A stretch of DNA of 64,000 bases, taken from assembly GCF_014192015.1 (NCBI RefSeq), contig NZ_JACHXJ010000002.1, positions 62,001-126,000 of the forward strand, in the 5' to 3' direction. Made by a program: the position numbers and the translations under genes. Shown one piece after another: positions 50,034 to 62,092 of the stretch; position 1 is the first letter of the stretch; each line of letters opens with the position of its first letter. This stretch comes from Paenibacillus rhizosphaerae. Lineage in GTDB: Bacteria > Bacillota > Bacilli > Paenibacillales > Paenibacillaceae. Under the pieces are notes generated by a model that made no database searches, was not told the origin of the DNA, and saw nothing but the letters and a program-made list of their open reading frames with translations.

Positions 50034-50268
50034 TGGTACCTGAGAGTTACCTTACTACGGATGCCGGTGAATGGAGCGGCCCGGGACTTCACAGGCGAAA
50101 TTCGGGCCCCACATCAACCCCGGGCAACAAGCAAGTTTCCCCTTGGGTGATTCTTACGTTCAGAATTCTCTCCAGAGATGCGTCCGGTAATCGTCCTTTT
50201 GCCTGAGAGATTCACCCGGGTCCGGGCTTACTCCTTCGGCGTTACTGCTCGGCAGTAATCTCTCCCAT
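50022..50268 (-). promoter_or_regulatory. Tandem glycine riboswitch of gcvT-gcvPA-gcvPB
   Basis: On the minus strand two aptamers follow each other. The first opens GGGAGAGAT with GCCGAAGGAG and AATCTCTCAGGCAAAAGGAC. The second opens TCTGGAGAGA with CACCCAAGGGG and AACTCTCAGGTACCAAGGAC. The CTCTCAGG-N-A-AAGGAC cores are diagnostic. Glycine binding should prevent the terminator and turn on the glycine cleavage genes. Confidence 0.97.
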
Positions 50269-50347
50269 TACCATCATCCGCTATACGATTGTTTGTTCAC
50301 GACATCATAAAGCTCGAATCAAATGTTCGAGTTCGTTCTATATATTA

Positions 50348-51427: not shown

Positions 51428-51495
51428 TAGTTCAGAGTTTGGAAAAGTAGAGCGGACGCTTGGAAAGTAATTGAATATTCAGCGGATGAACGCGC

Positions 51496-51685
51496 GCGGG
51501 AGAGACCGCCCATCGTATAAGGGCGGCACCGAAGGAGCAAGCTGCAGGTAGGCACATGCAGGCAGCTAATCTCTCAGGTACAAGGAACCGCCGCGGGACG
51601 CGGCTCTGGAGAGAGCTATACGGCCACCCAAGGGGAACGCGGCGCACCATGCCGCACAAACTCTCAGGTACAAGGGACAGAGAAA
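51496..51685 (+). promoter_or_regulatory. Second tandem glycine riboswitch, upstream of L-serine dehydratase and gcvH
   Basis: Two aptamers: GCGGGAGAGACC with CACCGAAGGAGCAAG and AATCTCTCAGGTACAAGGAACCG, then GGCTCTGGAGAGAGC with CACCCAAGGGG and AACTCTCAGGTACAAGGGACAGAG. Same diagnostic cores as the gcvT riboswitch. A terminator shares the last aptamer strand. Confidence 0.96.
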
Positions 51686-58528: not shown

Positions 58529-60502
58529 TTACGCATCCTGCAGCTCCAGCCACTGCTCATACGCCGCTTCCAGCTGTACCTGGAGCTGCTCCCGCTCCGC
58601 ATGAAGCTGCTGCAGGCGTGCCAGGTCTGAGGCGGCGCCTTTCTCCAGCATGTCGGTGTCGATCTGCCCGAGCCGGGCCTCGAGCTCCTTGATCGACTGC
58701 TCGAGTGGCGCGGAAGCGGTGGCGCCGCTTTTCCGGGAACACCGCTCGCCGGCATCGGCGCGCGGATCAGCCGGCTTGGATACCGGCCCATTGCCGTGGC
58801 TGCCGGCTGCCGCAGCCCTTGAACTGCGGGCCTCTGAATTCCACTCCTGCGCCGCCGTTTCGGCTTCGATCCGCTTGCGGATTTCCTGCTTGTAATCCTC
58901 GAAGTTACCGATGAAGGAGCGGACCCGCCCGTGATCCAGGCTCCAAATTCGGCCCGCCAGCCTGTTGATAAAATACCGGTCGTGGGATACGCCGAAGATG
59001 GTGCCGGGGAACTCCTCGAGCGCTTCTTCCAGCGCTTCCCTGGCGTCAATGTCCAGATGGTTGGTCGGTTCGTCCAGAATCAGCAGATTCGGCTTCTGCT
59101 CCATCAGGATGGCGAAGCGCAGCCGCGTCCACTCCCCGCCGGAGAGGCTGCGGATGTCTTTAAATACATCGGCGCCGTAAAACAGGAATCGCGCCAGCCG
59201 CCCGCGGGCTTCACCTTCCTCGATACCGGCCTGCTCCCGGTAGTACTGAAGCACGTTCTGCTTGACGGACTCCGGCGTTTCCTCCTGCGCGAGGTAACCG
59301 ATGCTGACGCGCGAACCGACGGCCACGCTGCCTTCCGCCGGCTCGAGCTGGCCAAGGGCTAGCTTGATCAGCGTGCTCTTGCCGCTTCCGTTGCCGCCGA
59401 GCAGCATCACGGTTTCCCCGTACCGGAGCGTTTCGTTTACGCCTGTGAACAAGGTGTGTGCGCCATACGATTTGCCCAGCTCCTCGAACACGAGCACCTG
59501 CTTGCCGGACCGGTCTTCCTGCTGCAGCGACAAATCCATCGTCTTACGCTCCAGCACTGGCCGCTTCAGCTTCACCATACGGTCGAGCGCCTTCTGCATG
59601 GAGGCGGCTCGGCGGTGGAACCCGGCGTTAGGCGGGTTGGACCGGTTGCCCCACTCGATCAGCTGCTTGATGCTTTCCTGCATCTTTTTGATTTTTTTCT
59701 GCTGCTCCTGGTAATCGGCAAACTGCTGCAGGAGCCGCGCTTCCTTTTCCTGCTGATAACCGCTGTAGTCGGTATGGTAGGTAAAAGCTTCCCCGTCTTC
59801 AATCTCGACCACCTTGGTCACGAGCTTGTCGAGAAAGTAACGGTCATGCGATATCGTAAGCACGGTGCCGCGGTATTCCTTCAGGAACTGTTCCAGCCAT
59901 TCAATCGCCGCCATATCCAAGTGGTTGGTCGGTTCATCCAGCAGCAGCACATCAGGCTGCTCAAGCAGCAGGGAGGCAAGCCCGATTTTGGTCTTCTCTC
60001 CGCCGGAGAGGGAGGCGAAGGGACGGCTGTACTGGCTCGCGGGAATGCCAAGGCCGCCGGCGATGCGGTCAATCGTCGCTTCCATTTCATAACCGCCCGC
60101 CGCTTCGAACCGTTCCTGCAGCCTGCCGTATTCGGCGAGCCACTTCTCCGGCTCTTTGCCGCCGGAAGCGGCGGAGCCGGACATCAGCGCCTCCAGCTCG
60201 CGCATCCGCCGCTGCCATTCAAGCGGCGTCGCAAAGGCGCGCAGCAGGAAGTCATACACCGTTTCGCCGTTTCCGGCATGGGGAATTTGGGCGAGAAAGC
60301 CAAGCTTAGCGCCCCGTGAAATGGAGATTTCGCCTCGGTCCGGCTTATCTCCGCCGTTCAGTAAGTGGAGCATCGTCGTTTTCCCGCAGCCGTTGCGACC
60401 GATCAGCGCCGCTTTTTCCCCTTCGCGGATTTCAAAGGATACATCGGACAGAACGAGCTGAGCTCCGTGGTATTTTTGTATGTTTTTGCATTGAATCATC
60501 AT
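58529..60502 (-). CDS. ABC-F family ATPase (probable ribosome protection/translation factor)
   Basis: Soluble tandem ABC protein of 657 residues without membrane domains. ABC1 has Walker A GRNGCGKTT and signature LSGGEKTKIGLA. The linker (about 235-330, KEARLLQQFADYQEQQKKIKKMQ) contacts the ribosomal P-site. ABC2 has GGNGSGKST and LSGGEWTRLRFA. Both Walker B blocks are LDEPTNHLD, the ABC-F hallmark. A C-terminal Gln/Glu-rich coiled coil ends the protein. ABC-F proteins rescue ribosomes from antibiotics or stalls. ATG 60502 is eight bases after GGAGG. A leader with upstream ORF and terminator precedes it, typical of drug-inducible members; the drug class is unknown. Confidence 0.92.
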   Translation of the reverse strand: MMIQCKNIQKYHGAQLVLSDVSFEIREGEKAALIGRNGCGKTTMLHLLNGGDKPDRGEISISRGAKLGFLAQIPHAGNGETVYDFLLRAFATPLEWQRRMRELEALMSGSAASGGKEPEKWLAEYGRLQERFEAAGGYEMEATIDRIAGGLGIPASQYSRPFASLSGGEKTKIGLASLLLEQPDVLLLDEPTNHLDMAAIEWLEQFLKEYRGTVLTISHDRYFLDKLVTKVVEIEDGEAFTYHTDYSGYQQEKEARLLQQFADYQEQQKKIKKMQESIKQLIEWGNRSNPPNAGFHRRAASMQKALDRMVKLKRPVLERKTMDLSLQQEDRSGKQVLVFEELGKSYGAHTLFTGVNETLRYGETVMLLGGNGSGKSTLIKLALGQLEPAEGSVAVGSRVSIGYLAQEETPESVKQNVLQYYREQAGIEEGEARGRLARFLFYGADVFKDIRSLSGGEWTRLRFAILMEQKPNLLILDEPTNHLDIDAREALEEALEEFPGTIFGVSHDRYFINRLAGRIWSLDHGRVRSFIGNFEDYKQEIRKRIEAETAAQEWNSEARSSRAAAAGSHGNGPVSKPADPRADAGERCSRKSGATASAPLEQSIKELEARLGQIDTDMLEKGAASDLARLQQLHAEREQLQVQLEAAYEQWLELQDA

Positions 60503-60534
60503 CGTTTTTTCCTCCATAGATGCCGCATCTACAG

Positions 60535-60564
60535 AAAAAAACCGCAGGGAAATGTCCCTGCGGC
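60535..60564 (-). terminator. Attenuator terminator in the ABC-F leader
   Basis: Minus strand GCCGCAGGGA-CATT-TCCCTGCGGT followed by a run of T, ending 32 bases before the ABC-F start codon. Confidence 0.92.
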
Positions 60565-60592
60565 TTGAACGTTCAACGCTTATCCGTTGAAG

Positions 60593-60742
60593 TTAAGGTA
60601 GGAGCGGCATTTCGCAATTTTGTAAAACAACCGGATTGTTAAAAATGGACAGACGGATCCCGTTAGCGGAAACTCTGTAAAAAATGCCGGACAAAATCAT
60701 CGGCAGTTGTTTAATCCGGTCGTTTCCCAAATTGCGTACCAC
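60593..60742 (-). CDS. Upstream ORF / candidate leader peptide (49 aa) of the ABC-F gene
   Basis: GTG 60742-60740, eight bases after the near-perfect ribosome site GGGAGGTG (60758-60751), opens a frame ending at TAA 60595-60593. The peptide begins MVRNLGNDRIKQLPMILSG and ends LQNCEMPLLP; I recognise no domain. Its stop is one base from a hairpin TTCAACG/CGTTGAA (60591-60572), which is followed by the terminator. The layout suggests that ribosome position on this frame decides termination. It could also be a small protein in its own right. Confidence 0.65.
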   Translation of the reverse strand: MVRNLGNDRIKQLPMILSGIFYRVSANGIRLSIFNNPVVLQNCEMPLLP

Positions 60743-60778
60743 TTCTACCTCACCTCCCTGTTAAAAAAAGTTAGCTTT

Positions 60779-60807
60779 ATTGTATCCACAACGAGCATTA
60801 AAAGCAA
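60779..60807 (-). promoter_or_regulatory. Candidate promoter of the ABC-F leader transcript
   Basis: Minus strand TTGCTT (60807-60802), a 17-base spacer and TACAAT (60784-60779), about 30 bases before the leader ORF. Confidence 0.65.
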
Positions 60808-61018
60808 GCAATGAACGAGAACATTTTATAAAAAATGGACGTTTGACCCTGAACAGACCTCCCAGCAGTTTTTGGAGTTGTGATCCCATTGGGGTTTCGA
60901 ACCGTCGATACGGGTGCCAGTGTGGACGGGCCGGTTTGTTAAAGCGGGACGGGCATTTATCTCCAGACCGGCATTATAATACAATAAGATGCAGTTGTTG
61001 AAACGAGTGGAGGGCCCC

Positions 61019-62092
61019 ATGAAGAAAAAAATAATGTTTACTGGCGGGGGATCCGCCGGACATGTCACCGTTAACCTGGCGCTGATCCCGCTGTTTCGGC
61101 AGGAAGGCTGGGCGGTGGAATACATAGGCTCGGTCAATGGGATCGAGCGGGAGCTGGTGTCGCCGCTTCCGGACGTGGCATATTTTCCGATAGCGACAGG
61201 AAAGCTGCGCAGATATTTGGACCGGCAAAACGCCAAAGATCCGTTCCGGATCGCCAAGGGCGTCTATCAGGCGTGCCGTCTGATCCGCCGACGGAAACCG
61301 GATATTGTGTTCTCCAAAGGCGGGTTCGTATCGGTGCCTGTCGTCATCGGTGCCTGGCTGAACCGGGTACCGGTCGTCATTCATGAGTCGGATATTACGC
61401 CGGGGCTGGCCAACCGGATTGCCATCCCGATGGCCGAAGCGGTGTGCACAACGTTCCCGGAAGCGGCAGCCCATATCGGCAAGGGCAAGGGCCGCCATGT
61501 CGGCGCTGTGATCCGGGATGAACTGAAACGGGGCAGCGCTGCCGCCGGACGGAAGCTGTGCAGGTTCACTCCGGGGAAGCCCGTTCTGCTGGTTATGGGC
61601 GGCAGTCTTGGCGCACAGAGCATTAACAAGACGGTGCGCCAGGCGCTGCCTGAGCTGACGAAAGCTTTTCAAGTCGTGCATTTATGCGGGAAAGGGCAGC
61701 TCGATCCGGCGCTGGAGGTTCCCGGCTATTGTCAATTCGAATACATTCGCGATGAACTGCCCGATGTGCTGGCCATGTCGGACTTGGTGATTACCCGGGC
61801 CGGCTCCAATTCGATCTTTGAGTTTCTTTCCTTGCGCAAGCCGATGCTCCTCATCCCACTGACCCGGCAGCAAAGCCGGGGCGATCAAATCCTTAACGCG
61901 CGCTCGTTCGAAAAAGCAGGGTATGCGGAAGTGCTGGAAGAGGAAGATCTGTCTCCGCAAAAGCTGCTCGAGCGGGTTCGGGCATTGCATGCCCATCGGG
62001 ATGCCTACGTATCGGCCATGGCAAGCAGCCAAAAGACGGACGCGCTTGCGGAAGTATTCAAGCTGATCAAAGAAACCGCAAAGCGCCATTAA
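61019..62092 (+). CDS. murG: UDP-GlcNAc:muramyl-pentapeptide-PP-undecaprenol GlcNAc transferase (MurG homologue)
   Basis: Adds GlcNAc to lipid I to form lipid II at the inner membrane face. A 357-residue GT28 enzyme with the N-terminal [15 protein letters not shown] loop, [38 protein letters not shown] and the UDP site [21 protein letters not shown] lies seven bases before ATG 61019. It is the Bacillus cereus-like stand-alone form, outside any dcw cluster, so a second murG may exist elsewhere. A TATAAT at 60975-60980 is the likely -10. Confidence 0.92.

Follow-up and report, generated by a model that had tools for sequence, protein, structure and literature searches.

What controls the ABC-F gene at this locus, and does the long leader in front of it belong to a class already described? 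The window, a 64,000-nt stretch of Paenibacillus rhizosphaerae DNA, carries on its minus strand a promoter, a Shine-Dalgarno (SD) sequence, a GTG-started ORF of 49 codons, a hairpin just past the ORF's stop, an intrinsic terminator and an ABC-F gene. These parts are present, and in the order, that an initial annotation read from the DNA letters. That annotation proposed that drug-stalled ribosomes on the leader alter the post-stop hairpin and let transcription pass into the ABC-F gene. It overlooked two features, a long stem that closes the leader SD and a conserved element inside the ORF. All parts are listed in Table 1.

Table 1. Features of the leader and ABC-F unit in the 64,000-nt window, listed along the minus strand.
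Feature	Position	Strand	Basis or remark
Promoter	-35 TTGCTT 60807-60802; -10 TACAAT 60784-60779	-	17-bp spacer; consensus match only; predicted
Leader SD, GGGAGGTG	60758-60751	-	Read from sequence
Long SD/start-closing stem, 5' arm	60713..60751	-	60751-60713 pairs with 60637-60595; MFE fold, cognate/non-cognate test, shuffles
Leader ORF	GTG 60742 to TAA 60593	-	49 aa; RAxF-45 family
Peptide-level core QLPMILSGIFY, codons 12-22	60677..60709	-	Candidate drug-sensing stretch; sensing inferred
Shared element, GGGATCCGTCTGTCC	60661-60647, plus ATTTTT to 60641	-	Inside ORF
Long stem, 3' arm	60595..60637	-	Downstream of element; MFE fold and cognate/non-cognate test
Hairpin TTCAACG/CGTTGAA	60591-60585 with 60578-60572	-	Starts one base past leader stop
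Intrinsic terminator	Stem 60566-60539, T-run to 60535	-	-19.2 kcal/mol
ABC-F ATPase gene	58529..60502	-	Probable start 60502, SD 60515-60511

The protein encoded downstream scores 478.7 bits against NF000355 (ribosomal protection-like ABC-F; cut-off 380) in a profile search, and the gene is likely to confer antibiotic resistance. Of 60 genomes, 29, its own among them, contain a match at 62% identity or more. An ATG at 60517 overlaps the gene's own SD and relatives begin with MMIQC or MIIQC, so the true start is probably the one given in Table 1. Divergent from this unit lies a gene whose translation reads as a MurG-like glycosyltransferase (window 60989-62092, plus strand); the labels MurG-, RicT-, sulfite-reductase-, RibD-, glycosylase- and phosphotransferase-like, here and below, are our readings of sequence and not database assignments. 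The window also contains a pair of glycine riboswitch aptamers, one on each strand (50181-50277, minus; 51488-51600, plus), with about 1.2 kb between them.

The leader ORF belongs to a named peptide family. In a profile search it matches NCBIfam NF041642 (RAxF-45) with an E-value of 1.1e-8 and 34.6 bits (cut-off 27), and its frame and place are kept in relatives. Conservation of the ORF had been set beforehand as a test of the attenuator proposal, and the ORF proved to be conserved. RAxF-45 matches occur at E<=0.01 in 32 of 60 relatives (10 above the cut-off). In the class, which we take to be Bacilli, 111 of the 398 genomes sampled have a match at E<=0.001 (60 above the cut-off). In the phylum sample five of 299 genomes carry a match, three of these five, the own genome among them, lying within the class; none of 14 control genomes has one. 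The name RAxF-45 was not found in the literature searched, mostly non-subscription papers, and as far as we found the family was named by NCBI apparently without explanation in print.

We examined 122 RAxF loci (L031-L152), which are a subset of the matches and not independent of one another. An ABC-F gene follows in 111 of them, identified by an ABC-type signature in 108 and by a visible ABC-F start in L041, L042 and L047. The remaining 11 comprise one Erm, three Mef-like, two RlmA/TlrB-like and one Mph gene, one each of phosphotransferase-like, SAM-methyltransferase-like and glycosylase-like (L107) genes, and one chance match (L151). L107 has a full RAxF leader and terminator, yet its longest downstream ORF is glycosylase-like and not ABC-F; it is possibly an orphan leader left after gene loss.

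Within the ORF, selection changes character along the sequence. Among 46 Paenibacillus-type leaders (753 pairs with at least 60% identity), codons 2-11 and 12-26 have dN/dS values of 0.51 and 0.54; the ratio rises to 1.20 over codons 27-35 and is 0.70 over codons 36-46. Leu13 is present in all 46 leaders and is encoded by four different codons; Gly19 is likewise found in 46/46 and Ile20 in 44/46. Over codons 27-35 the synonymous difference (pS) is just 0.14, and the positions that do vary alter the amino acid. Codons 2-26 evolve as protein, and codons 27-35 are conserved as nucleotides. Judged by its codons, the ORF is under protein-level selection over codons 2-26, and its translation is predicted.

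The nucleotide string that is conserved across leaders is AACGGGANNNGTNTGYCCNTTT. As a consensus the element reads GGGA-NNN-GTNTG-YCC; it spans 15 nt, lies 27 codons past the leader start and usually has T's next. Its column frequencies are partly circular because the loci were chosen by a relaxed version of the element pattern, which 7 of the 151 loci do not match. It mostly lies 69-93 nt from the leader start in RAxF and RLR leaders and about 43 nt from it in ILSTVL leaders, which places it immediately ahead of the 3' arm of the stem described below or at that arm's beginning. No Rfam family covers the window copy at gathering score. A reading of the element as a protein motif, NGIRMSFF, was ruled out by the codon pattern and by loci that have it in another frame or after the stop. 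In family f26, presumed to be Exiguobacterium-like, with 14 loci in genus g59 (L082, L087-L090, L093-L098, L100-L102) and four in genus g35 (L124, L127, L132, L133), the ORF stops right before the string, after RAIFHxxA/F, at 17 of 18 loci (exception L127). The relaxed element comes next at 16 of the 18, L127 and L132 being one base off. Since the f26 ORF ends before the element, the nucleotide-conserved part lies outside the peptide there. At RLR-type loci, the leader peptide ahead of the string is a different one and separate from it.

The element occurs in front of many kinds of resistance gene. The pattern GGGANNNGTNTGYCCNTTT has three copies in the own genome and none in the reversed control. 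Besides the window copy there are two at contig C5:188521-188872 (L154, L155, L156), which stand 331 nt apart and divergent in a compact two-gene locus. One, behind the short leader MEILSTVLRRDLA, stands before a second ABC-F gene, and the other precedes a gene for a FusB-family EF-G-binding protein. With the stricter pattern CGGGANNNGTNTGYCCNTTTTT, 57 of 299 class genomes give 69 matches in all; the reversed control gives one. We examined all of these 69 sites except G130:C55, two of the 68 being in the own genome. In 63 cases the gene downstream belongs to a family for resistance to drugs that target the ribosome (55 ABC-F, 8 others). The case of L160 is unclear, and four sites have an unrelated gene or none. 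At the RibD-like L166, the sulfite-reductase-like L157, the RicT-like L194 and the gene-less L193, the element is taken as chance. It is rare outside the class, with occurrences in two non-class genomes of the 299-genome phylum sample. Searches of named genomes returned at least 118 stretches; among the 80 matches listed most are Bacillales, and the scattered others are taken as chance.

All element sites together number 267 unique sites, 256 of them with a downstream ORF, which we grouped by single-linkage BLAST. The groups contain 202 ABC-F proteins (Walker A in 202/202), 9 RlmA/TlrB-like, 8 Erm and 4 Mph proteins, three sets of MFS proteins (5 weakly TetA(P)-like, 4 Mef-like, 2 FexA) and 22 singletons, which include Cfr and FusB. 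When single representatives were compared with NCBIfam, Erm and Cfr passed the cut-off, and MphL, FexA, Mef, RlmA and the FusB-family protein scored under it, some of the genes being cut. Of six further ABC-F representatives one passes the NF000355 cut-off; the other five, from cut genes, fall under it. The element is present in the three plasmid records examined, fexA of Enterococcus hirae, cfr of Staphylococcus arlettae pSS-03 and ermD of Bacillus licheniformis. A query made of the fexA leader and gene start matches 162 plasmid records, 154 of them across at least 80% of its length. The plasmid fexA (L339:342-503) and cfr (L340:419-598) records have leader ORFs of 53 and 59 aa that are annotated as hypothetical and overlap the element, and a genome of genus g35 (G230) holds a fexA copy that carries it (L192).

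The second overlooked feature is the stem that closes the leader SD, whose consensus across 46 relatives is GGAGGTG, together with the start codon. The SD and ORF of the window fold at -64.5 kcal/mol, compared with -39.4 kcal/mol for dinucleotide shuffles (z -6.1, 200 shuffles) and -40.8 kcal/mol for random synonymous recodings (z -4.5, 200 recodings). RNAalifold on 46 aligned leaders returned three pairs only, none with a two-sided change, and did not recover the stem. In our opinion this is because the register differs between leaders, and we therefore used a pairwise test, in which the start arm of each leader was paired with its own post-element arm and with those of other leaders less than 75% identical to it in both arms. 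Cognate arms are more stable by a mean of 15 kcal/mol; they rank in the top 5% for 91% of leaders, and no cognate pair falls into the lower half (n=102). The SD/start stem is long and co-evolving in these 102 leaders. Pairing of the SD with sequence overlapping or following the element is also seen, without controls, in 12 of 27 RLR-type leaders (the listed ones) and in the fexA and cfr leaders.

A terminator-like hairpin with a T-rich tail is present in every one of 104 leaders, with a median of -18.7 kcal/mol (five weaker than -12). The same finder applied to dinucleotide-shuffled stretches gives a median of -5.0, and the real sequence does better than its own shuffle in 103 of 104 cases. 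With the NF041642 match and the conservation in relatives, this upholds the view that a conserved leader ORF and terminator stand before the ABC-F gene in an arrangement that fits ribosome-dependent attenuation.

We consider it probable that the leader controls the ABC-F gene as a ribosome-dependent transcription attenuator, inducible by antibiotics, that works through a pause and the stem. By analogy, the best reading is that it is built like those of tlrB and vmlR. RNA polymerase would halt on the element or close to it before the leader SD is shut, by the logic demonstrated experimentally for B. subtilis tlrB, so that a ribosome could load. Once its 3' arm had been transcribed, the stem would shut the leader's own SD. 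In the absence of drug the ribosome would complete the leader, the stem would close over the SD and transcription would stop at the terminator. In the presence of drug the ribosome would be expected to stall around the GIFY/RAIFH core, holding the stem open and letting the polymerase enter the ABC-F gene. The position of the element at the 3' arm of the stem is where such a pause would be expected. The element has no G+1 of the elemental pause consensus, as that consensus is given in the accessible part of PMC12288461, and the position directly upstream of it shows no support for a hairpin (median rank 0.47, n=129). The NusG motif TTNTTT is absent after the element in the window (CCATTTTTAAC). 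We rejected it as the cause of the element's conservation, finding it in just 50 of 124 leaders. A special NusG paralogue that reads the element was rejected as a requirement, since 18 of 30 element-positive genomes, our own included, carry one NusG only.

The strict conservation of the loop-like positions, GGGA and GTNTG, exceeds what a plain hairpin needs, and neither a T-run nor TTNTTT is universal after the element. Both points would suit an element that is no pause signal and serves instead as a binding or processing site, for an RNA-binding protein, a nuclease or a ribosome partner, that governs the stability or termination of the leader transcript. We regard this as possible, though the less favoured reading: the placement of the element at the 3' arm of the stem and its distances from the leader start fit a timing signal, and we know of no candidate protein that would bind it. 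A protein-level role has also to be considered, in which RAxF-45 is a functional small protein of its own gene and the ABC-F gene is merely its neighbour. NCBI does list it as a protein family, and dN/dS near 0.5 agrees with that. We nevertheless think this very improbable, given that f26 ORFs stop early with the element still next, that codons 27-35 are conserved as nucleotides and not as protein, and that ErmD-type loci have the same element behind a different peptide.

The mechanism that the initial annotation put forward, a classic antiterminator in which stalled ribosomes shift the post-stop hairpin so that the terminator cannot form, appears unlikely. In the window ATCCGGTTG is able to pair with CAACGGAT after the stop, and in some Paenibacillus-type leaders (L010, L006) the 3' arm could form about 8-10 pairs with the 5' arm of the terminator. 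Against this, in cognate/non-cognate tests the pairing between post-element arm and pre-terminator segment shows no co-evolution (median rank 0.43, n=84), and that between the post-element arm and the 5' arm of the terminator gives a result near chance (median rank 0.36, n=89). The terminator is also present in the MFE fold of all 15 5'-truncations that reach the T-run. TTCAACG/CGTTGAA finds no support as an antiterminator in these results. Its conservation, which had been named as a further check, is partial: the hairpin recurs in the close relatives L039 and L056, and the other relatives read lack it in the same form.

A wider reading than the probable pause-and-stem attenuator at this locus takes in the element at all of its sites. 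GGGA-NNN-GUNUG-YCC followed by U's, together with an SD-closing stem, may be a portable, sequence-specific control signal that is independent of the leader peptide and common, in Bacilli, to inducible resistance against drugs of many ribosome-directed classes (ABC-F, Erm, Cfr, FexA, Mph, Mef, RlmA/TlrB and FusB). The peptide would name the drug, and the element would set the timing of polymerase and ribosome. We hold the arguments for and against this to be evenly balanced. If it is true, the element is a new kind of regulatory signal that is already on resistance plasmids. Inducible resistance genes are usually treated leader by leader; a single shared element would allow genomes to be searched for silent, inducible resistance by one unified approach and would explain a common design among very different leader peptides. 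The synchronisation of leader ribosome and RNA polymerase would also become testable on one short sequence.

How far the leader departs from described systems can now be stated. The initial annotation held that a 49-residue leader of this kind is not a described class. As a statement about leader length or family this does not hold, given the long leader BmrB, the relative rliI and the family named by NCBI. It may hold for the shared element, which we did not find described in the literature reached by gene and mechanism queries, mostly non-subscription papers seen in part. The window leader belongs to a named peptide family and to a wider set of attenuators that share one nucleotide element and, as a group, appear to be undescribed. 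The ermD/ermK leaders (MTHSMRLRFPTLNQ) have the same element and a stem that closes the leader SD; they differ in their 14-aa RLR peptide. Transcription attenuation of ermK was reportedly described by Kwak in 1991.

A relative of the family is filed as a small RNA. The Listeria leader rliI (Rfam RF01487, upstream of lmo2760) has 19 Rfam matches in 250 class genomes, all under the gathering score (45 bits); 17 coincide with RAxF-45 matches, one falls on an element site (G231) and one on neither (G190). Its covariance model has no match in the window, in the own genome or, at E 0.5, in L035, and the best relative, L031, reaches 43.1 bits. The accessible text of a review lists rliI as a putative conditional terminator, seen by term-seq, in front of a gene for an ABC transporter ATP-binding protein (PMC8079631). 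Neither a leader peptide nor the shared element is described for rliI in the portions of the sources available to us. A comparison of twelve Listeria term-seq candidates reports mostly terminator stems and no combined conservation of nucleotides, structure and gene context, and rliI is not named in its accessible text (PMC8632094).

Among characterised attenuators, likewise cited from the accessible parts of the papers, vmlR, cplR and lmo0919 (rli53) share an inducible ABC-F gene, a uORF and an intrinsic terminator with the window (PMC9226507, PMC10201436, PMC8079631). Their uORFs have 3 codons, compared with 49 in the window leader, and ABC-F uORFs are given as 3-4 codons (PMC10201436). The BmrB leader of bmrCD is similar in being GTG-started, 53 aa long and subject to ribosome-mediated transcription attenuation (PMC4191407); it differs in that its gene encodes an ABC exporter and not an ABC-F protein, and in having its terminator inside the ORF. 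The attenuation of vmlR also employs pausing (PMC9226507). In B. subtilis tlrB (yxjB), NusG-dependent pausing between leader and gene lets the ribosome load, and it is needed because the SD-closing hairpin would otherwise block the leader SD (PMC6851288). tlrB likewise combines a leader peptide, a terminator and an SD-closing hairpin, the apex of which carries a pause hairpin (PMC6851288). As in the tlrB/vmlR type, the window leader has an SD-closing stem whose 3' arm comes after the supposed pause. The two differ in the peptide, which in tlrB is a 9-codon RYR peptide, and in the pause, which is demonstrated in tlrB and inferred for the window leader.
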